From Liolophura sinensis (lineage: Eukaryota > Mollusca > Polyplacophora > Chitonida > Chitonidae), in NCBI RefSeq assembly GCF_032854445.1, contig NC_088296.1:27397064-27461063 (forward strand): a stretch of DNA of 64,000 nt. Direction: 5' to 3'. The position numbers and the translations under genes are program-made. Of this stretch, positions 666 to 63,782 are shown piece after piece. Position 1 is the first letter of the stretch; every line of letters starts with the position of its first letter. A model generated the notes under the pieces. The model ran no database searches, was not told the DNA's origin, and saw nothing but the letters and a program-made list of their open reading frames with translations.

Positions 666-991
666 AGAAGAGAGTTGACGACTGGACCGTGGACGTAGAC
701 CTCCGTATATACAAGGGTATACAGGCGGGAATGGACAGAGGGTTCATCAAACCCGGAAACCCCATCATCATCATCACCGGCTGGAAACCAGGTCAAGGGG
801 CCACCAACACCTTCCGGGTCATCTGTGCCCCGGAACAGCTGGACCCCAACACGGAAATGGCTCCCATCATGGGGGTACACAGTGTGCCGAGTCTGTCGTC
901 AGTTGAAGAGGAGAAGCCATCCGTGGAAGTGACGGAAGCTCCCGATGAGCCCGCGAAGACGCCGGAAAGTCCCGATGTCAAGTTCGAGTGA
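666..991 (+). CDS. PK-A: last exon of a pyruvate-kinase-like gene
   Basis: This is the terminal coding exon of a pyruvate kinase homologue, covering the C-terminal regulatory domain. It opens after an acceptor (cctccacag, 657-665) in phase 1, the same phase as the last exon of PK-B. The residues KRVDDWTVDVDLR correspond to the AEDVDLRVNFAM stretch of PKM. IIIITGWKPGQGATNTFRVI matches the conserved (V/L)TGWRPGSGFTNTMRV end of the family. After this the protein does not stop as animal PKM does but carries about 55 extra residues rich in Glu, Pro, Ser and Val, ending KFE. All upstream exons, including the catalytic residues, lie left of the window, so activity cannot be judged. There are 107 codons plus a stop. 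The family call is secure; paralogue identity is not. Confidence 0.88.
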
Positions 992-33640: not shown

Positions 33641-34203
33641 CTGTGACATGACATGACGGATTTTTTTAGTACATTTTGGGCCATACAAGGTATTTGTCTG
33701 TAGATAAACAACTCTCTCCTGCCTGTAAATTACAGTTGTTGGAGCATTCACTAATAAGCAAGGTGCTGTAACGTACAACATCGACGTTTCTACACAGGTA
33801 TGTAAAGTGGTGCAAAGGTTGGCCTTCATGTATAAATACGTATATCGATTTAATATACCTATATCAAATTAATATAAACCAAACCAATATTATGTAAAGT
33901 TACGGCAACAATGAGTCTACCTGGCCTAATTCGATGGTCAGTCAATATTGGAAACTTATAGGTAGACATATTTTCACTGTAGTTTTTGTAGATTTTCTTT
34001 GTTTTGTTTCATTTTTCTTTGTTAAGGGCACGTAGCATTTTATTCTGTAGTAAAATACAGCCTCCTACCACCTCTTGATATAGCTGAGCCCAAATGACAC
34101 AGTCAGATTCATGTTTGTGTCATCAGTTTATTACCAGCCTTATGGTACACTTTCTTCATTTGTTTCAGGGCGTTTCTCTTGGTGTGTCTAAAAATAACCC
34201 ATT

Positions 34204-35367
34204 ATGTTTCTCGCATTGATTGGTTTCGTGCTGGTGTCAGAAGTGGGATCGGTGTTACATGCAAATGATTTGACTGTAAACACAACGACTGGTCACATCC
34301 GGGGCATCTCGGTTAGAGTAGAGAGCGTCAATCGACACTTGTTCAAGTTCCTAGGAGTGCCTTATGCCAGGCCTCCAGTGGGTTCCAGAAGGTTTATGCC
34401 GTCTGAGCCAAAGCCATGGACCCCAGAAGTCTTCAATGCGTCTGTGTACGGGCCCATTTGTCCTCAAGACCCAACATGGGTTAAGTTCATCAAGAAAATC
34501 GTCCCAGAGACCACCGTGGATGAGGACTGTTTGAGTTTGAATGTGTATGTACCAGATCTACCATCCAGGGACGACAAACCACTAGCTGTGATGATATGGT
34601 TCCACGGCGGGGCACTTATCATAGGGTCCTCTACAGTGTTCGATCCGACGGTTCTAAGCACTGTTGGAAACGTCATTGTCGTATCCGTGAACTACCGCCT
34701 GGGCGTTCTAGGTTTCCTAACCAGCGAAGAACCCAGCAATGTCGGCAATTACGGTATTTGGGATCAGCATCTGGCCATCAAATGGGTGAAAAACAACATT
34801 GCTAATTTCGGCGGCAATCCTAATGAAATCACCATCTTTGGACAGTCGTCCGGATCCATGAGCGTGTCTCTTCACACGCTGATTCCTAAAAATACCGGAC
34901 TTTTCCGACGCGCGATATCTGAGAGCGGCACTGCCTTGAACCCTGGAGCCATGATTGACCGCCCAAGGCCGTGGTTTAAACTTTTCGCGCAGAAAATCGG
35001 CTGTGACAGCGTCGAAGGTGCAAAGAGCACGGAAGAAATTCTGGCCTGTCTTCGCAGCAAGCCCTTCGAAGACATCATAAGTATACAGAGAATGGTGCGA
35101 GCTGAATCCGTCGAGTTTCTCTTCCAGCCGGCGATTGGGAAGCTGCAGTGGGCGCCGTGGGTAGACGGTGATCTCATCCCTCTACATCCGGCGACCACGA
35201 TCAAGCTGATGAGCGAAAATAATCTGAACTTCAGCGTGCCCCTGACAGACATGGACCACGTGCTCGGGGTCAACAGTCAAGAGGGCGCCCTGTTTCTCCA
35301 ACAGCAAATCGACGGCTACAAAGCCGTGAAGGGTATTAATCTAACAGCAAGCGACCTCCCAGAGAAT
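34204..35367 (+). CDS. Esterase exon 1 (signal peptide to acid residue)
   Basis: 388 codons from the first ATG, ending phase 0 at CCAGAGAAT|gtaagc. It encodes the signal peptide, the oxyanion hole, Ser215 and Glu360. Translation past the donor gives a hydrophobic tail and stop at 35439, which would be a truncated protein lacking the catalytic His if the intron were retained. Confidence 0.93.
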
Positions 35368-38300
35368 GTAAGCATACATGTCCACTTTTTCCTTTCTATG
35401 CTTGTTTTCACATTCATACTCTGTATCCTGATATACTGAATTAGGAATTGTAGATAGGTATTTGATAAGTACTCGGAAAACTACTATTATCTTTTCTAAA
35501 TGATTCTTGTAAGCATTCCCGTAGAATATGATTCATTTGCTTTAACCGCTATACGAACCGCTATATTAACTTACAGCCAACGACGAGGCGAAATCGTAGT
35601 TTTTAAATACGGATTTTCGGTTCCAAGCTGTGTCCAGTTCTTGTAGCAGCCGTTTACCGTTAGATTTCCCATGGTTAAGTTCACAATTTCCACCCAATAG
35701 GTTGGCATATATCTCCACCAGGTGGAGCGAGCTTCTTCAGATGACGTAACATGTGTAGTGTGCCCTGTAGACCAGCTATAGGGAAGTTGCATACTTCTAG
35801 GTAATGGACTTCTGATTTCACCTTAAGACAGCTGCATGTTTTATGCCTGTTTTGTGCCCCAGTCGTCTCCACAATATAAACACCTGTGCTTACATCACTC
35901 CACACAGGTATCATTTCCATTTAATCCCCTAATCCATTAATCCAATTTCTCAAACCTTTCGTCTTGCAACTTGAAAAACATGTTATATACATATGTAAGC
36001 CTTCCACTAACATCACTGGATTCCTTCCGGCGAGAGGAGGTTGTGTTAAACTTACATTTCACACGCATATGGGGCAATTTTACAAACAGAATAACAAATA
36101 AAGGTTTTGATAAATACAAAACATGCTGAAATGTTTATAAATGACAATCGCGCTGTTGGCTTCAACTTCCAGGTATCTGTCTACCGTTAACATTATATGC
36201 ACTATTTTGAAAGATTGTCATCTACTACTTGATGTTATTGATGAAACAGGTCTTTGGGTATTGTTTTACTGATTGGCGGCCTGAACTTTAATGAAGTTGG
36301 GGCCTCCGTGGCTCAGTTGGTTAGCGAGCTAGCCCAGCGTAATGACCCAGAAGCCTCTCACTAATGCGGTTTGCTGTGAGTTCAAGTCCAGCTCATGCTG
36401 GCTTCCTCTCCGTAAGTGGGAAGGTCCGCAGCAACCTGCGGATGGTCTTGGGTTTCCCCAGGGCTCTGCCCGGTTTCCTCCCACTATAATGGTGGCCGCC
36501 GTCGTATAAGTGAAATATTCTTAAAACACCAATCAAATAAATAAATAAATTAATGAAGCTAACGAATCCAGCTATTCCATTATAACGTATGTCATTGTAT
36601 CTATGGACAGGTGTACAAAGACTTCATGGCGTCAGTGGTTACGTCGGTAACCGGGAATAACCAATCGGCTTTCGAGGAGATGTATGGTGTAACCATAGAC
36701 CATGAGTATCAGAGGATTTACAAAGCCAAGTCCTCGCCGACCGACCTCAGCATCAGGTGACGCACAGATCTAGGGATTACATAGTACACCAGGGATTACA
36801 TAGCACACCAGGGATTACATAACACACCAGGTGACACACAGGCGTAGGGATTACATAGCACACCGGGGATTACATAGCACACCAGGTGACACACAGGCGA
36901 GGGATTACGTAGTACACCAGGGATTACATAGCACACCAGGTGACACACAGGCGTAGGGATTTCATAGCACACCAGTGATTACATAGCACACCAGGGATTA
37001 CATAGCACACGAATGATTACATAGCACATCAGGTCACGCACAGACGTAGGAATTACATAGCACACCAGGGAGTACATAGCACACCAGGGAGTACATAGCA
37101 CACCAGGGATTACATAGCACACTAATGATTACATAGCACACCAGGGATTACATAGCACACCAGGTGACGCACAGACGTAGGGATTACATAGCACACCAGG
37201 GAGTGCATAGCACACCAGGGATTACATAGCACACCAGGTGACACACAGACGTAGGGATTACATAGCACACCATGGAGTACATAGCGCACCAGGGATTACA
37301 TAGCACACGAGGGATCCTGATTCGTACGGTAGCCAGTATAGGTCATTTCCATTGGTTTTATGTTTAGTAAAATTTTCTGTGTTTTCCACCTGGTTAACAG
37401 AGGTTTTCACCCAAGTGAGAATTATTGGTTTTCACAAAGGCATGGAAACCAGAGAAATATGGACCGCGGTATATTTGGTTCTGGACTGCATTTTTAGCAA
37501 GCAGATCTACCAGTCTCTCGGTATGTCTGTCTATCGGCACGTCGGGCGGTTCGTTTACCTTTTGACACCATATACTTTTGACATCCTATATTTAAGCAGT
37601 CGCTATGTCGCAGCTGTTTATTTATTTATTAATTTATTTAACTGGTGTTTTACGCCGTACTTAAGAATATTTTGGTTATACGGCAGCGAACAGTATTATG
37701 GTGGGAGGGAACCAAGCAGAGCCCGGAAGAAACCTACGACCATCCGCCGGTTGTTAGCAGATCTTCGCCTTAGACTCAGTCGTCTTAGATATAGTTTCCT
37801 GGGCATGGTCTACCAAGTCACTTTTATCTTCTTTAGCTATATTGATTTCTTTCACGTTAAACTGTTGTTTGTATTATTTGACAAAATAGCGGCTTAGATA
37901 GCAATACTAGTAATACACTATATAATATAGATTTATATCCCAAAGTGAAGATGGCCTTCGATATGTACACAGTCGTTATGGTCTGTTGAAATCGTCACGC
38001 ATTTGTCAGCTTAAGTTTGGATGCTGGATTGTCACTATTAACCTGACGGGCAACGCTCTCCATGTGACACTCCAAACATTCAATGCATGCCATTAACAGT
38101 ATGAATGTTCGCATTAGTGCAGAATTCGACCAATGGTGGTATGAAGTAACGATCCTTATTGTTGTTTAATCGCCACAGGTACACGGACATCCTCTCCGAT
38201 TTGACCTTCTACATGGGGGTTGTATCCTTCGCCCGTGTCCATGCCAGCTTCCGTTCACAGGGCCCCATCACCCTCCAAACGTCCCCCAAGACGTTCTTTT

Positions 38301-47990: not shown

Positions 47991-48247
47991 TCACAGAATG
48001 TCCGCGGATTGGACGCGGGCCATGGTAGAGGGCGCTTTCAGATGACGACTTGACATGAACGTCTGCTGTTCTATCTCCTCCATCAGGTTGATAACTCGCA
48101 CTGTGTTCGTGGATCCCGCTCCCGCTGTCCACCCCGTAACCAAGATGATGACGTCATTGGGTTTGACATATCCGCGGTCTTTGGCAATCATGACAGCGCG
48201 TGTGATTCGGTGATCAATGTCTGTCATCCAATCAGGCGAGCGTGTAA
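47991..48247 (-). CDS. PK-B exon Z (C-terminus and stop)
   Basis: It follows acceptor gttgttgttgtag in phase 1, as in PK-A. It encodes [19 protein letters not shown] and [19 protein letters not shown], then a tail [15 protein letters not shown] through SADIL not present in PKM. Confidence 0.9.
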
Positions 48248-51200: not shown

Positions 51201-54200
51201 TACACCCCGTACTTCTACTTCTCCCCTATACCCCATACTTCTACTTCTCCCCTACACCCCATACTTCTACTTCTCCCCTACACCCCGCATTTTCCCCCTA
51301 CACCCCATACTTCTACTTCTTCCCTACACCCCACACTTTTCCCCTACACCCCATACTTCTACTTCTCCCCTACACCCCATACTTTTACTCTACACCCCAT
51401 ACTTCTACTTCTCCCCTACACCTCATACTTTTCCCCTACACCCCATACTTCTACTTCTCCCTTACACCCCATACTTCTTCTTCTCCCCTACACCCCACAC
51501 TTATCCCCTACACCTCATACTTCTACTTCTCCCCTACACCCCATACTTCTACTTCTCCCCTACACCTCATACTTCTACTTCTCCCCTACACCCCATACTT
51601 CTACTTCTCCCCTACACCCCACACTTATCCCCTACACCTCATACTTCTACTTCTCCCCTACACCCCATACTTCTACTTCTCCCCTACACCCCATGCTTCT
51701 CCCCTACACCCCATGCTTCTCCCCTACACCCCATGCTTCTCCTAGAATGTTTCAAAATACTGGTCATATTGGTGACTGAAACTCACGACCTTCCGCAGGT
51801 TGCTGTCAGACCTTCCCCACGTACAGCCCATAGCGATGAATGAAAAGGTTGAAGAATTAAGGATATATTCATTGTAACCTGCAATATACAACGCAGCAAC
51901 CTGCGGATGGTCCTGGGAAGATCTGGCAGCAACCTGCGGATGGTGGTGGGTTTCCCCCGGGCTCTGCCCGGTTTCCTCCCATCATAATGCTGGCCGCCGT
52001 CGTAGAGCTGAAATATTCTTGAGTATGGCGTAAAACACCAATAAAGTAAATAAATAAATCTAACAAGGGATTATGTGAGGGAAGACAAGATCTACTGAAG
52101 ATGATGAGATATACTGACCGTCCAGTAGATGTGATAACAAATATGGCTGTGGCCTGACATCTGAATGCGGCCTCCACTGCGGCCACAGCAGTGGTGTGGG
52201 TGCTTCCGGTCGGGCCCGTGATCTCCTCCCGGAGTTCTCGGAACACTTTCTCATGGAACACCGTCGACTCCGCTTCTCTACAAATCTGAGAACAGTACAG
52301 TTTGCTTCTTAGTTTACATGCAGTCTGCCCTACCCCTGAGTATTTGTTATTTATAGACATATTGACTTAAACTTTGGTCCGGATAAAATTATACCATGTA
52401 CATGTCTACCAATAAACTTTTGTTAAAACATTAAAGATACAGTGCCAGACTTCATGCTATACTGTAACTACTCAACCTTTTCGCATTCTGAAAGCATAAT
52501 TCTGTGCAGACTGACAAAATTATACTTTTTTGTGAAGTCCTAAAATGGCTCAACCAAGTTTTGCCTCCAAAATCAAATCAAAAATTGCACTGAAAGTTGC
52601 TTTTTGATGTGTGAAAAGGTTGAGGAATTTTAGTAGTCACATTAAAGATGTGCTGAACTAAAGTGGAAACACTTACAGGTATAACATTACCTCCACAACT
52701 CTTCATCATATATTTATATATATATGTAAATATATATTATTAATATTTATATATTAGTCTTTTATCCTTTCACTGGATGTTAGAAATGACCTCCACCAGC
52801 ATCTTGTGTTAGATGTTTCACTCGATAGTCTTGCTGTCATTTGCACGTAGTTTCCACTTTGGTCAGAATGTCTATACTTGACCTTACACTTAATATAGTT
52901 TTGACAGTTTTGATTGGATGCTTCCCCATGGCTGTCTCTTTCCCCAGCATCACACAGTCCGCACCATCGAGGACAGCGTTTGCCACATCTGCAACTTCAG
53001 CGCGTGTCGGGCGAGGGTTCCTCGTCATGCTGTCCAACATCTGCGATAAATACATGAGAAAAGTTCCCTCAGATAAAACACATGTGAGAATGGTTTGAAC
53101 GCAAATAAAAAGCATGCAATAATGTTTCTTTATATAAAAGTGAAATGAATAACATGAATTTGGGAAGAATTTTTGGTGAAACAAAATATATGAGTATAGT
53201 TCACAGAGACATAAAATACATCTGAGAATAGCTCTCAGGGACATAAAATACATCCAAGAATAGTTCTCAGGGAAATAAATTACATCTGAGAACAGTTCTC
53301 AGGGCCATAAAATACATCCGAGAATAGTTCTCAGAGACATAAATACATCCGCGAATAGTTCTAAGGGAAATAAATTACATCCAAGAATAGTTCTCAGAGA
53401 CATAAAATACATCCGAGAATAGTTCTCAGAGACATAAAATACATCCAAGAATAGTTCTCAGGGACATGAAATACATCTGAGAACAGTTCTCAGAGACATA
53501 AATACATCCGAGAATAGTTCTCAGAGACATAAAATACATCTGAGAACAGTTCTCAGGGCCATAAAATACACACGAGAACAGTTCTCAGAGACATAAACTA
53601 CATATGAAATTAATTCTTAGCGAAATAAAATGAATGCAAGAATGGGTCTCAGAAGTACAAGTACATGCTAGTCCTGCTGGTATGAGAATAGACCTCATGG
53701 AAATAAGATAAATTTGAGAATAGTCTTCAGAGAAATAAACTATATGTTAGAATAGTTCTCTGAGAAATAAAACACACATGAACACATTTCTCAGACAAGT
53801 TTGATTTGATTGGCCCTTTACTCAAGAATATTTCACTCTTATGATGCCTGTCTCAGACAATTACCTGTGTCGCAATGATAGCTGGTTTCCCTGCCTTATT
53901 ACATTTGCCGATCATCATTTTCTGAGCGAGGAAGACTTTTTCCGGGGAGATGTCGATGCCTAGGTTACCCCTAGCAACCATAATTCCGTCAGAGTGTTTT
54001 AGTATGTCATCAAACCTAAAACATACAGGTGGACACATTTTAATAACACATCTTCATTTTTTTTTTTTTTTTTTTGCATCATTTTATAAAGTACATGTAC
54101 AAAATTTACTGGAAAATTTTAGTCTTGGTAGCGAGGCTACCATAGTGCTTGTCTGCAGGAGAAACATGGATGAAACTCCTCAGCTCAATACACAACGTAC

Positions 54201-57200
54201 TTAAACATTCACCTTGACAAGGATTCTAATAGCACAAAAGAGACATCAAGGTCATGAGTTTTGTGATTCACAGTAATTAACACACACACAGGGCCCCAAT
54301 AATGGAACATCCCACATGTGTCATTGTGCTTCACATGTATACAAAACAAGAACTGGACAATGTATGCAGTGCTTTATGAGATACAATCTCTATCTTGGAC
54401 ACTGTTGCTTGATGTATGATATTTATAGCTATGCCTGTACTTCACGACTTAAAGCCACAGCTTACCCAGATTACCTGACAACTCTTGCTAGCTTTATCTG
54501 CCTACAAAAACTACCTTTCCTGACAACACCCTATAGTTTCCATAGCCTACCTCCGTACACCCTTGTAGTTTCCATAGCTTACCTCCCTATGCCCTTGTAG
54601 TTTCCATAGCTTACCTCCCTATGCCCTTGTAGTCTCCATAGCTTACCTCCATACACCGTCGTAGTTTCCATAGCTTACCTCCATACACCCTCGTAGTTTC
54701 CATAGCTTATCCATAGCTTACCTCCACACACCCTCGTAGTTTCCATAGCTTACCTCCATACACCCTTGTAGTTTCCATAGCTTATCCATAGCTTACCTCC
54801 ATACACCCTCATAGTTTCCATAGCTTACCTCCATACACCGTCATAGTTTCCATTGCCTATCCATAGCTTACCTCCATACACCCTCGTAGTTTCCATAGCT
54901 TACCTCCATACACCCTTGTAGTTTCCATAGCTTATCCATAGCTTACCTCCATACACCGTCGTAGTTTCCATAGCTTATCCATAGCTTTCCTCCATACACC
55001 CTCGTAGTTTCCATAGCTTACCTCCATACACCCTTGTAGTTTCCATAGCTTATCCATAGCTTACCTCCATACACCGTCGTAGTTTCCATAGCTTATCCAT
55101 AGCTTACTTCCGTACACCCTCGTAGTTTCCATAGCTTACCTCCATACACCCTCATAGTTTCCATAGCTTACCTCCCTATGCCCTTGTAGTTTCCATAGCT
55201 TACCTCCCTATGCCCTTGTAGTCTCCATAGCTTACTTCCGTACACCCTCGTAGTTTCCATAGCTTATCCATAGCTTACCTCCATACACCGTCGTAGTTTC
55301 CATAACTTATCCATAGCTTACCTCCGTACACCCTCATAGTTTCCATAGCTTACCTTCATACACCCTCGTAGTTTCCACAGCTTATCCATAGCTTACCTCC
55401 ATACACCGTCGTAATTTCCATAGCTTATCCATAGCTTACCTCCATACACCCTCGTAGTTTCCATAGCTTACCTCCCTATGCCCTCGTAGTTTCCAAAGCT
55501 TACCTCCCTATGCCCTTGTAGTCTCCATAGCTTACCTCCGTACACCCTCGTAGTTTCCATAGCTTATCCATAGCTTACCTCCATACACCCTCATAGTTTC
55601 CATAGCTTATCCATAGCTTACCTCCATACACCCTCGTAGTTTCCATAGCTTACCTCCCTATGCCCTCGTAGTTTCCATAGCTTACCTCCATACACCCTCG
55701 TAGTTTCCCTAGCTTATCCATAGCTTACCTCCATACACCCTCATAGTTTCCATAGCTTACCCATAGCTTACAACCGTACACCCTCGTAGTTTTCATAGCT
55801 TACCTCCGTACACCCTCGTAGTTTCCATAGCTTACCTCCGTACACCCTCGTAGTTTCCACAGCTTATCCATAGCTTACCTCCATACACCCTCATAGTTTC
55901 CATAGCTTACCCATAGCTTACAACCGTACACCCTCGTAGTTTTCATAGCTTACCTCCGTACACCCTCGTAGTTTCCATAGCTTACCTCCGTACACCCTCG
56001 TAGTTTCCATAGCTTACCTCCGTACACCCTCGTAGTTTCCATAGCTTACCTCCGTACACCCTCGTAGTTTCCTTTCTTATCCATAGCTTACCTCCATACC
56101 CCTCGTAGTTTCCATAGCTTACCAATAGCCTACCACCGTACACCCTCGTAGTTTCCATGATAGCTTACCTCCGTATGCCCTCGTAGTTTCCATAGCTTAC
56201 CCATAGCTTACCAATAGCTTACCACCGTACACCCTTGTAGTTTCCATAGCTTACCTCCCTATGCCCTTGTAGTTTCCATAGCTTATCCATAGCTTACCAA
56301 TAGCTTACCACTGTACACCCTCGTAGTTTCCATGATAGCTTACCTCCGTACACCCTCGTAGTTTCCATAGCTTACCCATAGCTTACCAATAGCTTACCAC
56401 CGTACACCCTCGTAGTTTCCATAGCTTACCTCCCTATGCCCTTGTAGTTGCCATAGCTTATCCATAGCTTACCAATAGCTTATCACTGTACACCCTCGTA
56501 GTTTCCATGATAGCTTACCTCCGTACACCCTCGTAGTTTCCATAGCTTACCAATAGCTTACCACTGTACACCCTCGTAGTTTCCATGATAGCTTACCTCC
56601 GTACACCCTCGTAGTTTCCATAGCTTACCTCCGTACACCCTCGTAGTTTCCATGATAGCTTACCTCCGTACACCCTCGTAGTTTCCATAGCTTACCTCCG
56701 TACACCCTCGTAGTTTCCATAGGTTACCTCCGTACACCCTCGTAGTTTCCATAGCTTACCTCCGTACACCCTCGTAGTTTTCAATCTTGGCAATCACCTT
56801 GACATTCTGTCCCTTTGCACCGAGACGTTCGCGAATCTCGTCTATTTCCGTGGCACTCCAGATGTATGAAGCAAAGATGATGTCAATCTGCAGATACAAG
56901 TCCAGGAATTGTCTTAATCATTTTTAAATTTGTTTTTTTACATTATGGAGGGGGGCGGGGAAGGCTTCGTGGCCGAGCGGGTCAGCACACCAGAACAGTG
57001 ACCCACTAACCTCTCACCAATGTGGTTGCTCTGAGTTTAAGTCCAGATCATGCTGGGTTCCTTTCCAGCCATACGTGAAAAGGTCTGTCAGCATCCTGTG
57101 GATTGTCATGGGCAAATCCTGTTTTCCTTCCACCATGATGCTTGTTGCTTTCCTATTTAGTAAAACATTCTTGAGAATGACGTAAAACACCAATCAAATA

Positions 57201-60200
57201 AATGAAATAATTAGAAATACATCATGGCAATTAACTTCAATCTGCCAATAACCACTGCCTTACCTGACAACTTGATCTGCCTATACCAAGTAGTTTTGAA
57301 GAAAATTTTGTTGAAGAAAATTCATTATGATTAATCCTAATGTGAGAAAAAAATTATTCGTGTTTTCGCAGCGTCTCTATTATGGGGGCAATCATAGCTG
57401 GTGTCACCAAGGCCCTAAAACCTACACATTCCCTGGCCAGGTATTATTTCATACACGAACATCTCCACTAACTAATCATCTCTAAAATAACTATTACAAC
57501 CTGAACACAAAACCATCACCTGCAATGTTCTTAATAAACACAGCCATTCTGCACAAACAGATAAATCTTTAAATTGAGTTTAAAGGAAGCTTGTCTGAAA
57601 AATAGTCATCAAATAATAGCATATTTGTATTGGCACTATGCCAAAAAATGTAACCTGTTCATTGCCTACCAAACCTTGTCATTATGACCAGTAACCACAC
57701 TCCACTCTGGTCATACAGGGGGAGGTGTGTCAGCCACCTGCGCATGGTCATGGGATTCCCCTGGGTTGTCCGGTTTCCTCCCACCATAATGCTGACCTCC
57801 GTCACATAAGTGAAATAGTCTTGAGTATTGTGTAAAACACCAATCAAATAAATAAATAATATCAAAACCATACCATTGATTCTCTCTATCTCTCTCTCTC
57901 TCTGTCTTGCAAAAAAAAAACTTTCCTCCATACTTCCTCCAAAAAAGATAACAGGTGAGCAGGTAGTGGTGCCTGTCTTTCAATCGCTGGGACACAAAAG
58001 GCACAGGATTCAAAACCAGACTTGGAAAGGGAATTTGCAAATTTTCACCACTTTTTGTGGGGCCTTGGTGACAATTAACGGTCGCAAGTGTTTGTATGAA
58101 CGTTTCCCAAGTTTAAAGATCACCTGTCTTCACCTGGAGTCTTTATGTCTCTAAGCAACACGTGGGAAAATTCGTCAGTATAAAACTTGCCAGAGGTTGC
58201 TGGTTTTAGCCCTGGACACCCCAGTAATAGGGCCGCTTGGCCACAATTGCCTAAGTGAACAACTCAGGAGTATGATGATAAACAACAAAGAAATAAACAA
58301 ATATATGTATAACATATACCTGTTTTTTAGGTGGTCTATATTATGCTAATGATTTCTTTTCAAAATTCTTATTGTATGAAGAGCAGCAATTTGATGCCGG
58401 CTTTAGACTTTCTCTTTTCGTTGACTTACATTGTGATCCAAAACAAACTTAATATCTTTCTTGTCTTTTCTGGTCAGCTCTGGCTTGCCTGGTAACACAC
58501 CGGGGATGTTACAGTAATGTCTGCTTCCTATAATCCCTTCATCATCAACCTCACAGATAATAAAGTCTGAACCTGTAACAACAATAACATGCACAATCTC
58601 AGCTCTGGTTTCCATGGTAACACACCGGGGATGTTACAGTAATGTCTGCTTCCTATAATCCCTTCATCATCAACCTCACAGATAATAAAGTCTGAACCTG
58701 TAACAACAATAACATGCACAATCTCAGCTCTGGCTTGCCTGGTAACACACCGGGGATGTTACAGTAATGTCTGCTTCCTATAATCCCTTCATCATCAACC
58801 TCACAGATGATAAAGTCTGAACCTGTAACAACAATAACATGCACAATCTCAGCTCTGGTTTCCATGGTAACACACCGGGGATGTTACAGTAATGTCTGCT
58901 TCCTATAATCCCTTCATCATCAACCTCACAGATGATAAAGTCTGAACCTGTAACAACAATAACATGCACAATCTCAGCTCTGGCTTGCCTGGTAACACAC
59001 CGGGGATGTTACAGTAATGTCTGCTTCCTATAATCCCTTCATCATCAACCTCACAGATGATAAAGTCTGAACCTGTAACAACAATAACATGCACAATCTC
59101 AGCTCTGGTTTCCATGGTAACACACCGGGGATGTTACAGTAATGTCTGCTTCCTATAATCCCTTCATCATCAACCTCACAGATGATAAAGTCTGAACCTG
59201 TAACAACAATAACATGCACAATCTCAGCTCTGGTTTCCATGGTAACACACCAGGGATGTTACAGTAATGTCTATTTCCTATAATCCCCTCATCATCAACC
59301 TCACAGACGATAAAGTCTGAACCTGTAAGAACAACAACATGCACAATCTCAGCTCTGGTTTCCATGGTAACACACCAGGGATGTTTCAGTAATGTTACAG
59401 TGCTGTCAATCATTTCCTCATCGTTCACATCACATATACCTGTCTGAAGCTGTAATATAAACATTAAGAATCTTAGCTCTGGTTTCCATGGTTACACACT
59501 GAGGAAGTTACAGTAATGTTACAGTGTTGCCTATCACTTCCTCTCATACCCTCATTGTTCACCTCACATATAGCTGCCTGAAGCCGTAATATAAACATTA
59601 AGAATATCAGCTCTGGTTTCCATGGTAACAGACTGGAGAAGTTACAGCGTTGTCTATCACTACCTATCATACCCTCATTGTTCATCTCACATACAGCTGT
59701 CTAAAGCCGTAATATAAACATTAGCATCTTAGTTCTGGTTTCCAAACAAACCGTTTTTCAAGTTAACAAGCTGTCCACGACACGTAATTTTTCACATTAT
59801 AAAACACATACATGTCTCCTGCACCAAGTAATTTTTATGAACATTTCTGAAACATTTTTGGGCTAAACCTTAAAATATCAAAATAAGTCTTCGAATTTAA
59901 CACCTTCTTTTGGAGTTATATACTTTTTACAAGGAACATGATCTTTAGAGTCCAAGACAATGTGTACAGTCAGATAAACTTCTGAACAGAGTAGGAAAAA
60001 AAAATAACCTTTCAGTAGGAAAAAACATTACCTTTCTCCTTCACCACAAGTGAAGTAGTTCCATCTTCGATAAAAATGTGGCTTCCTATTTTGGTTTTCT
60101 CGATGAGCTCGATATGGTCCACAAACATGCAGTCCTGTGTCCCCTCATCCCGGAATGTCAGGTCATTGGTCAGTCGGATCATGTGACCCTTCTTCAGGTA

Positions 60201-60218
60201 AACTTCACTGCCCAGTTC
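47991..60218 (-). CDS. PK-B: divergent pyruvate-kinase-like gene, eight 3' exons
   Basis: Pyruvate kinase transfers phosphate from phosphoenolpyruvate to ADP in the last step of glycolysis. Exons S 60218-60032, T 58572-58430, U 56887-56760, V 54015-53865, W 53040-52888, X 52285-52119, Y 49146-49028 and Z 48247-47991 join with consistent phases to 1305 nt (434 codons plus stop). They run from the B domain to the C-terminus. The first ~110 residues must be encoded beyond 64000. Conserved landmarks are VIAKIEN (catalytic Lys and metal Glu), [48 protein letters not shown] and VTGW near the end. Departures are VARGNLG where the family has VARGDLG (a metal-binding Asp becomes Asn), [12 protein letters not shown] for MLSGETAKGDYP, and a ~30-residue C-terminal extension. 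It may be a paralogue with altered or no activity. Three exons carry amplified splice boundaries. Confidence 0.92.
48652..48735 (-). mobile_element. Decayed SINE tail fragment
   Basis: gattactgtttaatgccgta, ctcgagaattgttcacttct and attagtgttatgggcg are a diverged minus-strand tail and body of the SINE. It lies between PK-B exons Y and Z. Confidence 0.5.
49028..49146 (-). CDS. PK-B exon Y
   Basis: 119 nt. It encodes [20 protein letters not shown] then [12 protein letters not shown], matching the family's RYRPRAPIIAVTR and LYRGIFPV. The donor GATT|gtaatt was chosen because it alone restores frame with exon Z. Confidence 0.87.
49272..51750. repeat. 2.5-kb minisatellite in PK-B intron
   Basis: Over 100 copies of a ~20-bp monomer tacaccccatacttcttccc, interrupted at intervals by a ~23-bp alternative with gaactgtgtagattatttcc. 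From about 51200 a variant with ctacttctcccctacacccc takes over. On the transcribed strand it is G/A rich (ggggtgtag). Long plus ORFs (196-293 aa) are repeat artefacts rich in Thr, Pro, Tyr and Phe. Confidence 0.95.
51777..51829 (-). mobile_element. SINE fragment
   Basis: aaactcacgaccttccgcag then gttgctgtcagaccttcccc is a minus-strand piece of the SINE body at the edge of the minisatellite. Confidence 0.65.
51893..52059 (+). mobile_element. SINE with an internal duplication
   Basis: gcagcaacctgcggatggt occurs twice (51894 and 51929). After it come ctctgcccggtttcctccca, taatgctggccgccgtcgta and the tail gcgtaaaacaccaataaag. The doubled block suggests a small internal tandem duplication or two nested copies. 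Confidence 0.85.
52119..52285 (-). CDS. PK-B exon X
   Basis: 167 nt, phase 0 in and 2 out. It encodes [20 protein letters not shown] and [20 protein letters not shown], matching REAEAAIYH and AVEASFKCCSGAIIVLT of PKM. Confidence 0.92.
52888..53040 (-). CDS. PK-B exon W
   Basis: Exactly 51 codons, phase 0 at both ends, after acceptor tttatcgcag. It encodes [20 protein letters not shown] and [15 protein letters not shown]. The glycine-rich MLSGETAKG loop of the family is altered here. Confidence 0.93.
53215..53600. repeat. ~33-bp minisatellite in PK-B intron
   Basis: About twelve copies of a unit with gagaatagttctcagagaca and taaaatacatcc, decaying to the left and to the right (to ~53800). 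It lies between exons V and W, 180 bp from the W acceptor. Confidence 0.92.
53806..53850 (-). mobile_element. SINE tail fragment
   Basis: gatttgattggccctttact, caagaatatttcactcttat is the minus-strand tail only. Confidence 0.55.
53865..54015 (-). CDS. PK-B exon V (Asp to Asn at metal site)
   Basis: 151 nt, phase 2 in and 0 out. It encodes [20 protein letters not shown] and [20 protein letters not shown], ending ATQ. The codon at the Mg-coordinating aspartate (Asp296 in PKM numbering) reads AAC, Asn. Confidence 0.93.
54536..56759 (-). repeat. 32-bp minisatellite carrying the PK-B exon U donor
   Basis: Roughly 60 copies of a 32-bp unit, some with extra 11-21-bp inserts (ccatagctta duplicated). 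On the transcribed strand each unit reads tacgagggtgtacggag then gtaagctatggaaac. The first part is the last 17 bases of exon U (Tyr-Glu-Gly-Val-Arg-Arg) and the second its donor and the start of the intron. The unit at the exon is the coding one. In the exon U frame the first repeat gives CGG AGG TAA, so use of any later donor would introduce a stop codon. Confidence 0.95.
56760..56887 (-). CDS. PK-B exon U (catalytic Lys)
   Basis: 128 nt, phase 0 in and 2 out. It encodes [20 protein letters not shown] and [15 protein letters not shown]. The Lys and Glu of KIEN are the catalytic acid/base-region Lys and a metal ligand. The nearest donor gtaagc at 56759 is taken; dozens of copies of this same donor follow in the adjoining array. 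Confidence 0.93.
56958..57209 (+). mobile_element. Full-length tRNA-derived SINE
   Basis: Head gcttcgtggccgagcgggtc (A-box) and ctctgagtttaagtccagat (B-box). The body is diverged (gtctgtcagcatcctgtgga). The tail is tgacgtaaaacaccaatcaa. It lies between PK-B exons T and U. Confidence 0.85.
57700..57870 (+). mobile_element. SINE, 5' truncated
   Basis: ccacctgcgcatggtcatgg, gtccggtttcctcccaccat, gtgtaaaacaccaatcaaat and an (aaat)n tail. The minus ORFs across it are spurious. Confidence 0.85.
58430..58572 (-). CDS. PK-B exon T
   Basis: 143 nt, phase 1 in and 0 out. It encodes [20 protein letters not shown] and [15 protein letters not shown]. It corresponds to GADFLVTEVENGG...DIQDLKFGVEQD of PKM, but the family's KGVNLPG is replaced by CNIPG. 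Only this most downstream copy has the donor (gtaagtc); its 5' part recurs upstream in a tandem array. Confidence 0.9.
58430..59740 (-). repeat. 125-bp tandem array carrying the PK-B exon T acceptor and exon 5' part
   Basis: gtctgaacctg recurs at 58565, 58690, 58815, 58940, 59065, 59190 and 59315, an exact 125-bp period. Each copy on the transcribed strand has ttattgttgttacag followed by the exon from [11 protein letters not shown] to about PEL, then joins the next copy. Copies alternate between gctctggcttgcct and gctctggtttccat versions, a 250-bp higher-order unit. More diverged copies continue to ~59740. Only the copy at 58430-58572 has a donor. Since 125 is not a multiple of three, upstream acceptors shift frame. 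Confidence 0.94.
60032..60218 (-). CDS. PK-B exon S (B domain)
   Basis: 187 nt, phase 0 in and 1 out. It encodes [20 protein letters not shown] and [20 protein letters not shown] then TTSLVVKEK. It matches the PKM B-domain block AEVELKKGATLKITLD...KIYVDDGLISLQVK. The acceptor tttgtctgtcag nearest the unique 3' part is taken; four further copies of acceptor plus first half lie upstream. Confidence 0.9.
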
Positions 60219-60865
60219 CTGACAGACAAACACATACAATGTAGCCGTACAAACTACAGGTCTACACACAAACACACAGTCCTGTGTCCCCTCATCCCGG
60301 AATGTCAGGTCATTGGTCAGTCGGATCATGTGACCCTTCTTCAGGTAAACTTCACTGCCCAGTTCCTGACAGACAAACACATACAATGTAGACGTACAAA
60401 CTACAGGTCTACACACAAACACACAGTCCTGTGTCCCCTCATCCCGGAATGTCAGGTCATTGGTCAGTCGGATCATGTGACCCTTCTTCAGGTAAACTTC
60501 ACTGCCCAGTTCCTGACAGACAAACACATACAATGTAGACGTACAAACTACAGGTCTACACACAAACACACAGTCCTGTGTCCCCTCATCCCGGAATGTC
60601 AGGTCATTGGTCAGTCGGATCATGTGACCCTTCTTCAGGTAAACTTCACTGCCCAGTTCCTGACAGACAAACACATACAATGTAGACGTACAAACTACAG
60701 GTCTACACACAAACATGCAGTCCTGTGTCCCCTCATCCCGGAGCCTCAGGTCATTGGTCAGTCGGATCATGTGACCCTTCTTCAAGTAAACTTCACTGCC
60801 CAGTTCCTGACAGACAAACACATACAATGTAGACGTACAAACTACAGGTCTACACACGCACACAC
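60130..60865 (-). repeat. 147-bp tandem array carrying the PK-B exon S acceptor and exon 5' half
   Basis: cagtcctgtgtcccctcatc recurs at 60130, 60277, 60424, 60571 and 60718, an exact 147-bp period with only a few substitutions. Acceptor-adjacent exon starts are at 60218, 60365, 60512, 60659 and 60806. Each copy encodes [20 protein letters not shown] and the following DEGTQDC, then runs into intron-derived sequence (CRPVVCTSTLYVFVCQ) that stays open. Since 147 = 3 x 49, all five copies share one frame (minus ORF 60908-60012). Confidence 0.95.
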
Positions 60866-60974
60866 ACTGATTTACAAGCACAAACACTGATTTATTTACG
60901 TATTTCACTGTTGATTAATGTCATTCTCAAGGAGTTTTTACTTATGTGATGCTGGTCTGTGTGTATGAACAGGA

Positions 60975-63782
60975 GAGAGACAAGGGGGAAAAGAAGGTGA
61001 GAGACCAGGCGAGGGACAAGGTGAGATGCAAGGCGTGAGACAAGGTGAGCTGCAAGGCAAGGGACAATGAGTGAGACAAGGTGACATCCAAGGTGTGAGA
61101 CAAGGTGAGTTGTATGCGAGGGACAAGGCCAGAGACAAGGCGAGCTGCAAGGTGAGGGACAAGGCATGAGACAAGGCGAGCTGCAAGGTGAGGGACAAGC
61201 CGTGAGACAAGGCGAGCTGCAAGGTGAGGGACAAGCCGTGAGACAAGGCGAGCTGCAAGGTGAGGGACAAGGCGAGCGCAAGGTGAGGGAGAAGGCGAGC
61301 TGCAAGGTGAGGGACAAGCCATGAGACAAGGTGAGCTGCAAGGCGAGGGACAAAGCGTGAGACAAGGCGAGCTGCAAGGCGTGAGACAAGGCCAGATTCA
61401 AGGTGAGGGACAAGGCCAGAGACAAGGCGAGCTGCAAGGTGAGGGACAAGGCGTGAGACAAGGCGAGCTGCAAGGTGAGGGACAAGGCGAGCTGCAAGGT
61501 GAGGGACAAGGCGTGAGACAAGGCGAGCTGCAAGGCGAGGGACAAGGGGAGCTGCAAGGTGAGGGACAAGGCATGGGACAAGGCGAGCTGCAAGGCGAGG
61601 GACAAGGCGAGCTGCAAGGTGAGGGACAAGGTGCGAGACAAGGCGAGCTGCAAAGTGAGGGACAAGGCGTGAGACAAGGCGAGCTGCAAGGTGAGGGACA
61701 AGGCGAGCTGCAAGGTGAGGGACAAGGCGTGAGACAAGGCGAGCTGCAAGGCGAGGGACAAGGGGAGCTGCAAGGTGAGGGACAAGGCATGGGACAAGGC
61801 GAGCTGCAAGGCGAGGGACAAGGCGAGCTGCAAGGTGAGGGACAAGGTGCGAGACAAGGCGAGCTGCAAAGTGAGGGACAAGGCGTGAGACAAGGCGAGC
61901 TGCAAGGCGAGGGACAGGCCAGATTCAAGGTGAAGGACAAGGCGTGAGACAAGGCGAGCTGCAAGGTGAGGGACAAGGGGAGCTGCAAAGTGAGGGACAA
62001 GGCGAAGGACAAGGCTAGCTGCAAGGTGAGGGACAAGGCGTGAGACAAGGCCAGATTCAAGGTGAGGGACAAGCCGTGAGACAAGGCGAGCTGCAAGGTG
62101 AGGGACAAGGCGAGCTGCAAGGTGTGGAACAAGGCCAGTGACAAGGCGAGCTGCAAGGTGAGGGACAAGGTGTGAGACAAGGCCAGATGCAAGGCGAGGG
62201 ACAAGGTGAGCTGCAAGGTGAGGGACAAGGCGAGCTGCAAGATGAGGGACAAGGCGTGAGACAAGGCGAGCTGCAAGGTGAGGGACAAGGCGTGAGACAA
62301 GGCGAGCTGCAAGGTGAGGGACAAGGCGAGCTGCAAGGTGAGGGACAAGGCGTGAGACAAGGCGAGCTGCAAGGCGAGGGACAAGGGGAGCTGCAAGGTG
62401 AGGGACAAGGCGTGAGACAAGGCGAGCTGCAAGGCGAGGGACAAGGCGAGCTGCAAGGTGAGGGACAAGGCGCGAGACAAGGCGAGCTGCAAAGTGAGGG
62501 ACAAGGCGTGAGACAAGGCGAGCTGCAAGGCGAGGGACAAGCCGTGAGACAAGGCCAGTTTCAAGGCGAGGGACAAGGCGAGCTGCAAGCTGAGGGACAA
62601 GGCCAGAGACAAGGCGAGCTGCAAGGCGAGGGACAGGCCGTGAGACAAGGCCAGATTCAAGGCGAGGGACAAGGTGTGAGACAAGACGAGCTGCAATGTG
62701 AGGGACAAGGCGTGAGACAAGGTGAGCTGCAAGGTGAGGGACAAGGCGAGCTGCAAGCCGTGAGACAAGGCAAGATTCAAGGTGAGGGACAAGGTAAGGG
62801 ACAAGGCGAGCTGCAAGGTGAGGGACAAGGCGAGCTGCAAGGTGAGGGACAAGGCGTGAGACAAGGCGAGCTGCAAGGTGAGGGACAGGCTGTGAGACAA
62901 GGCCAGATTCAAGGCGAGGGACAAGGTGTGAGACAAGACAAGCTGCAATGTGAGGGACAAGGCGTGAGACAAGGCGAGCTGCAAGGTGAGGGACAAGGCG
63001 TGAGACAAGGCCAGATTCAAGGCGAGGGACAAGGTGTGAGACAAGACGAGCTGCAATGTGAGGGACAAGGCGTGAGACAAGGCGAGCTGCAAGGTGAGGG
63101 ACAAGGCGAGCTGCAAGGTGTGGAACAAGGCATGAGACAAGGCGAGCTGCAAGGTGATGGACAAGGCGAGCTGCAAGGTGAGGGACAAGGCGTGAGACAA
63201 GGCGAGCTGCAAGGTGAGGGACAAGGCGTGAGACAAGGCGAACTGCAAGGTGAGGGACAAGGCGTGAGACAAGGCAAGCTGCAAGGCGAGGGACAAGCCG
63301 TGAGACAAGGCCAGATTCAAGGCGAGGGACAAGGTGTGAGACAAGACGAGCTGCAAGGTGAGGGACAAGGCGTGAGACAAGGCGAGCTGCAAGGTGTGGG
63401 ACAAGGCGAGCTGCAAGGCGTGAGACAAGGCGAACTGCAAGGTGAGGGACAAGGCATGAGACAAGGCAAGCTGCAAGGCGAGGGACAAGCCGTGAGACAA
63501 GGCCAGAATCAAGGTGAGGGACAAGGCTTGAGACAAGGCGAGCTGCAAGGTGAGGGACAAGGCCAGAGACAAGGCGAGCTGCAAGGCGAGGGACAAGCCG
63601 TGAGACAAGGCCAGATGCAAGGTGAGATACTCTTTAATAGCTGGTTTGTTAAGCCTGCAGGTGATGATTTGCAACAGAAGATTTGCAACAGAGACAAGGC
63701 GAGCTGCAAGGTGAGGGACAAGGCGTGAGACAAGGCAAGCTGCAAGGCCAGGGACAAGCCGTGAGACAAGGCCAGATGCACG
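60975..63782. repeat. 2.8-kb array of 12-bp monomers
   Basis: Three 12-bp monomer types (gagctgcaaggt, gagggacaaggc, gtgagacaaggc) alternate, often as a 36-bp higher-order unit. On the plus strand it reads GELQ-GEGQ-GVRQ, on the minus LQLALS/HALSLT. Because 12 is a multiple of three, frames stay open for 208, 518 and (minus) 839 codons without any recognisable domain or flanking gene structure, so these are not called as genes. The array lies upstream of exon S, presumably in a PK-B intron. Confidence 0.95.

Follow-up and report, generated by a model that had tools for sequence, protein, structure and literature searches.

The window analysed in this study (64,000 bases; C2:27397064-27461063) belongs to a chiton genome assembly of 609,464,459 bases in 632 contigs; positions are those of the window unless contig C2 is named. 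A pyruvate kinase gene, PK-B, lies there on the minus strand, and three of its exons, S, T and U, carry tandem arrays that span an exon edge. Exon positions were derived from homology combined with a splice-site score, and the exon edges are predictions from these two sources.

Exon S (60032..60218, minus strand) was placed by a splice-edge call and a match to PF00224 (60030-60212), with its acceptor edge at 60218. An array of 147-bp units in 5.1 copies crosses this edge (60120..60866, minus strand; TRF, motifs and copy alignment). The array has 97% matches and contains five identical acceptor motifs, the first at the real edge and the others giving decoy exon starts at 60365, 60512, 60659 and 60806 (minus strand). 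Three of the four decoys are identical, and a 300-codon frame (60012-60914) is open across all copies. The acceptor edge of exon T (58430..58572, minus strand), at 58572, is crossed by an array of 125-bp units in about 10 copies (58474..59744, minus strand; TRF). It comprises the real edge, five decoys with one to four exonic differences, one decoy with nine, and, at the far end (approximately 59350-59744), about three older, diverged copies. The young copies, the real edge included, are two variants in alternation, one of them the exon's own, and thus form 250-bp dimers. At exon U (56760..56887, minus strand) the donor edge, 56760, is crossed by an array with a 32-bp unit of 20 exonic and 12 intronic bases (54526..56785, minus strand; TRF). 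This array has 60 copies, the real one included, and also contains longer unit variants; GTAAG is present in 54 of the 59 decoys.

In each of the three arrays the unit combines exonic with intronic bases, and the real edge is the copy joined to the exon body; both types of edge are hit, the acceptor at S and T and the donor at U. The TRF scores (1417 for S, 1706 for T and 1821 for U) place the arrays beyond chance matches. Homogenisation among copies is seen in the identical S decoys and in the 250-bp dimers of T. The initial annotation had described five copies of 147 bp at S, seven or more of 125 bp at T and about 60 of 32 bp at U, with units straddling the exon/intron junction, one copy serving as the real edge, and dozens of decoy splice sites. 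Copy anatomy and exon placement bear out this description, U alone supplying 59 decoys, 57 of them with an intact GT.

Neither edge is straddled at exon V (53865..54015) or exon W (52888..53040), and an array near exon W (53192-53653) lies within the intron and spans no exon edge. Exon X (52119..52285) has its acceptor at 52285 or 52277, and the last homologous coding exon, Z, lies at 48090..48247 (all four on the minus strand). A large array with a 12-bp base unit (60971..63627, minus strand; TRF) occupies the intron upstream of exon S, which is bounded by the end of exon 2 at 64155 and the start of exon S at 60218; it stops short of any exon edge. Tandem repeats make up 64% of the PK-B span. 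Elsewhere in the window, a single 413-codon frame (34198-35436) was judged by eye to be carboxylesterase- or cholinesterase-like.

A neighbouring gene, PK-A, lies on the plus strand; some 56 kb separate the first candidate for its last exon from the last exon of PK-B. It also has two edge-straddling arrays, one of 23 bp at the donor of the second exon mapped in it and one of 104 bp at the acceptor of exon W. For exons 1, 2, S, V and W, as called, the two genes agree in length, and the U donor is common to both; the calls for PK-A exon T and for the exon U acceptor of PK-A are unreliable. Of the 118-kb PK region, 24% consists of tandem repeats. Downstream of PK-A, the plus strand has two successive last exons of PK type (window 666-838 and C2:27388806-27388978), possibly as alternative C-terminal exons or as a partial third copy.

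The arrays had been described as surrounding the catalytic region of the gene. This label calls for caution: exon V of PK-B (53865-54015) reads ARGNLGID, with N for D, where PK-A and the aligned solved pyruvate kinases have ARGDLG. The motifs RLNLAHG and DITGPGIRLG in the first mapped PK-B exons (1 and 2; locus L005) also differ from PK-A. The altered residues presumably fall at functionally relevant positions of pyruvate kinase, and PK-B may be, as judged from its sequence, a weakened or inactive enzyme.

Frequency of straddled exon edges

Exon edges were sampled in other genes of the same genome. The first sample comprised 145 exon matches of the CCT, myosin-head and ALDH families (148,062 bases), in which 144 acceptors and 139 donors (283 edges) were called and candidate arrays were read by eye. 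The kinesin sample comprised 17 contiguous spans (90,150 bases) with 72 of the 132 kinesin matches, and 67 donors and 70 acceptors (137 edges) were called. Edges were called with a simple in-house splice-site score weighted by metazoan values, and these denominators are possibly off by a few. Eight consecutive matches to the haemocyanin model PF14830, which we take to be mollusc-specific, were also observed in the genome.

Arrays that straddled the edge, with exonic sequence repeated, were found at 12 of the 283 edges of the first sample: 10 of the 139 donors (L012, L031, L038, L047, L071, L078, L079, L103, L104 and L105) and two acceptors (L028 and L035). In the kinesin sample they were found at 3 of 137 edges: a single donor among 67, and two acceptors among 70, both of which were accepted with little margin (L109 has 7 exonic bases, and L111 is an old array with 76% matches). 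Pooled, 15 of 420 edges are straddled (3.6%; 95% interval 2.0-5.8%), or about one edge in 28, with 11 of 206 donors and 4 of 214 acceptors. Edge-straddling arrays thus occur in unrelated genes on other contigs; the initial annotation had suggested a locus-specific or a genome-wide mechanism, and the similar arrays in PK-A and in CCT, myosin, ALDH and kinesin genes show that the phenomenon is not confined to PK-B.

Several candidates were rejected as mirages (the edge-crossing minisatellites compared below). The array at L083 begins 5 bp inside the exon, but the exonic bases are not repeated; at L089 the array stops within the intron and the HMM match had run into it; at L080 a 333-bp array, as read by eye, begins about 8 bp past the donor, and a second array overshoots the acceptor by no more than a few bases. 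Locus L098 was rejected as a splice-edge case: a 79-bp array (L098 234-470) covers the stop codon and the 3' end of the last ALDH coding exon, which is the same phenomenon at the coding end rather than at a splice edge. The false donor of L098 remains in the denominator of 139 donors.

Tandem repeats cover 11.4% of the bases of the first sample and 13.4% of those of the kinesin sample. None of the 71 arrays in the first sample lies wholly within called exons (about 9 expected at the intronic rate), and in the kinesin sample 1 of 36 does, a 27-bp one. The median unit of partly coding arrays is 72.5 bp, rejected candidates included, against 26 bp for intronic arrays. Across loci L008-L105, arrays cover 9% of bases directly after donors and 13-16% beyond 280 bases from acceptors, but 4% of the last 40 intronic bases beside acceptors, a pattern that would fit protection of the branch point and the pyrimidine tract.

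The presence of similar arrays in unrelated genes speaks against the suspicion that the assembler inflated the copy numbers. Concatemer artefacts do exist in this assembly: on contig C99, COX1 recurs about every 15.5 kb (seven matches, of which one is partial), a head-to-tail mitochondrial contig that is probably an assembly artefact. The copies of the edge arrays, on the other hand, show private variants and an order of age. The Liolophura japonica assembly was built from HiFi reads (mean 8,347 bp, 14X; PMC11068029), and reads of this mean length exceed each array and should span it. We therefore regard inflation by the assembler as extremely improbable.

Straddled edges against a founder null

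The chance expectation was derived from intron-only arrays, as the share of pre-expansion intronic sequence that lies under founder units. This is the fair null, since in the sequence as it stood before the array grew each exon edge occupies a single point. A null based on coverage, under which an intronic point more than 200 bases from an edge lies in an array in 11-16% of cases and edges would look depleted, was set aside for the same reason.

Random founding duplications would straddle approximately 1.7% (kinesin) to 1.8% (first sample, uncorrected) of edges, which gives 5.2 expected straddled edges in the first sample, 2.3 in the kinesin sample and 7.5 in total. Cutting contiguous DNA into 1,100-base pieces raises the founder rate by about 1.3-1.4 times and does not lower it, and the window-corrected total is 6.1. 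The observed 15 exceed both values (P 0.01 uncorrected, P 0.002 corrected). Ordinary intronic minisatellites had been held to have no reason to include coding sequence; chance founders already supply 1.7-1.8% against the 3.6% observed, and the need for a special reason is not supported. The comparison of exon edges with introns that had been proposed, carried out on 420 edges, thus yielded an excess of about two-fold, all of it at donors: 11 donors are straddled against 3.7 expected uncorrected (P 0.001) or 3.0 corrected (P 0.0003), while the 4 straddled acceptors among 214 show no excess over the approximately 3.1 expected.

This donor excess is a feature of the first sample, where 10 of 139 donors are straddled and the split into donors and acceptors was examined after the count; in the kinesin sample it is absent, 1 of 67 donors being about the chance number. 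The difference between donors and acceptors has P 0.07 overall and the heterogeneity between samples P 0.11, and we treat the donor excess as a lead. If real, it could mean that tandem duplication starts preferentially at splice donors, perhaps owing to co-transcriptional R-loops or to slip-prone, GC-rich exonic sequence, and the longer units of partly coding arrays would agree with this, although a length bias alone would act likewise. The post hoc split, the P values above and the kinesin donors argue against such a preference, as does the PK locus itself, with two acceptors and one donor in PK-B and one of each in PK-A. We consider a preference for donors unlikely. Of the junction-targeting duplication mechanism suggested at the outset there remains at most a hint from donors in one of two samples.

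In PK-A and PK-B together, straddled edges number 5 out of about 37, against 1.0-1.5 expected (P 0.004-0.02), the 37 being a hand count of 19 edges in PK-B and 18 in PK-A, with one PK-A exon unlocated. For PK-B alone the figures are 3 of 19 against 0.5-1.1 (P 0.02-0.09). The locus, however, is where the phenomenon was discovered and was chosen for being striking. Three consecutive straddled exons in a given gene of 10 exons have a chance of about 0.003, at 3.6% per edge and assuming independence, and such genes are therefore expected somewhere among the 28,010 protein-coding genes annotated in the Liolophura japonica genome (PMC11068029). The run of three, which had been called hard to explain by chance, is accordingly unusual for the gene but not for the genome.

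Decoy splice sites and the origin of the arrays

The splice dinucleotide (GT or AG) is retained in 198 of 222 decoys, where about 167 would be expected from the divergence elsewhere in the 24-base context. For units with a short exonic part this figure is an underestimate, and copies mismatched at more than 8 of the 24 bases were left out of the counts, which favours intact decoys; the comparison is for these reasons no evidence of selective keeping. Of the 222 decoys, 131 score above the real site or no more than 0.5 below it, and few or no decoys as strong as the real site are found at L103, L105, L106 and PK-A exon 2. The decoys are not purged. In most arrays the real site cannot be told from a decoy by its sequence, and how far a site lies from the exon body therefore probably decides.

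Intact decoys as strong as the real site could also be in use, with regulated alternative 3' or 5' splicing inside the arrays producing longer or NMD-targeted isoforms. In agreement with this, the four exon S decoys would each add 49 stop-free, in-frame codons, and across the U decoys (54570-56779) divergence from the real copy is 1.2% in the intronic GTAAGCT, against 9.0% in the 20 exonic bases. The uniformity of GTAAGCT may, on the other hand, reflect a few mutations copied many times among copies that share ancestry. Other features speak against use. The best-scoring unit length is divisible by three in 7 of 20 cases, near chance, and the reading frame is therefore not visibly selected. Reading past the real exon U donor gives AGG TAA in frame, so that use of any U decoy would truncate the product; the 125-bp exon T decoys would shift the frame, and the exonic parts of six of them differ no less than the intronic parts (3.9% against 2.1%). 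Amphioxus arrays of the same kind seem, according to their authors, not to disturb regular splicing (PMC3087553). Regulated use of the decoys appears very improbable.

The reading that we favour, and hold to be likely, is that the arrays are mirage-type minisatellites: a duplication crossed an exon edge by chance, was tolerated, and then grew like any minisatellite. A duplication of tens to hundreds of bases, through replication slippage or microhomology, would first cross one exon edge. Founding microhomology is suggested at S by the sequence itself, where exon ATGTTTGTGGACC faces intron CGTGTGTAGACC. By the anatomy of the arrays, the duplicated block would come to lie on the intron side and a complete edge would stay joined to the exon. 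With this intact edge in place, the encoded protein would stay the same and the array would escape removal by selection, whereas duplications wholly inside an exon, nearly absent from the samples, would be removed. The array would then grow and homogenise in blocks that take in the real edge, as exon T shows, with young copies near the exon and old copies far from it, and as the other arrays presumably did. Splicing would pick the real edge by its position beside the exon body, since most decoys match the real site in sequence quality.

Repeat coverage of 24% in the PK region and of 11-13% in the samples implies that founding events are common. Tolerance together with this high tandem-repeat load explains most of the pattern, and intact, strong decoys fit tolerated passengers. 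Chance and tolerance may be incomplete as an account, given 15 straddled edges where 6.1-7.5 are expected, and the contrast between GTAAGCT and exonic bases in U is not predicted by simple neutral drift, although the copies are not independent. A bolder version, in which donors would be founding hot spots, thousands of genes would carry decoy arrays with the edge chosen by position, and some decoys would be kept by use (as GTAAGCT in U), giving a tunable unproductive splicing set by array length, strikes us as decidedly unlikely.

Tolerated mirage-type arrays would matter in several respects. A phenomenon known from a handful of amphioxus genes proves frequent in a mollusc, at the rate given above for the genes sampled. 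Genes of this kind are natural experiments on splice-site choice, with dozens of near-identical sites from which one has to be picked. For annotators they are a warning that exon edges may be wrongly called where a genome is rich in minisatellites, and they supply material from which exons could be extended and introns gained.

Comparison with known systems

In the open-access literature searched, no report of such arrays in a mollusc was found, and no precedent for an estimate of their frequency per exon edge. The original description of mirages in amphioxus is reportedly that of Canestro et al. (2002). By the features examined, the S, T and U arrays belong with these already known 'mirage' minisatellites, which in amphioxus (Branchiostoma) have been described in Adh3 and in the globin genes BflGb6 and BflGb9 (PMC3087553).

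In both animals, as far as the amphioxus account goes, the units cross an exon-intron boundary on the acceptor or the donor side, the copies include the authentic edge itself, many copies keep the AG or GT, and the copies evolve in concert (PMC3087553). Unit sizes overlap with those of the chiton, at 10-72 bp in Adh3 and 150-160 bp in BflGb6, while copy number is higher in the chiton, with the 60 copies of U against 6 and 3 in two BflGb6 haplotypes (PMC3087553). The amphioxus mirages are backed by RNA and haplotype data (PMC3087553), whereas the chiton arrays are known from one assembly. The chiton arrays differ further in belonging to another phylum, in affecting three exons of one gene, and in having an estimated frequency per edge.

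Human genes in segmental duplications have variable internal tandem repeats at exon-intron boundaries, likewise built of minisatellite units, but these alter transcripts and are discussed as forming novel introns (PMC2812944), whereas in the chiton an intron that was already there holds the copies and the exon seems to have stayed as it was. The Rogers model of intron gain, in which a proto-splice site (AG/GT) is duplicated in tandem, likewise duplicates splice signals (cited in PMC3087553). Unlike in that model, no new intron is seen when the reliably called exons of PK-A and PK-B are compared.
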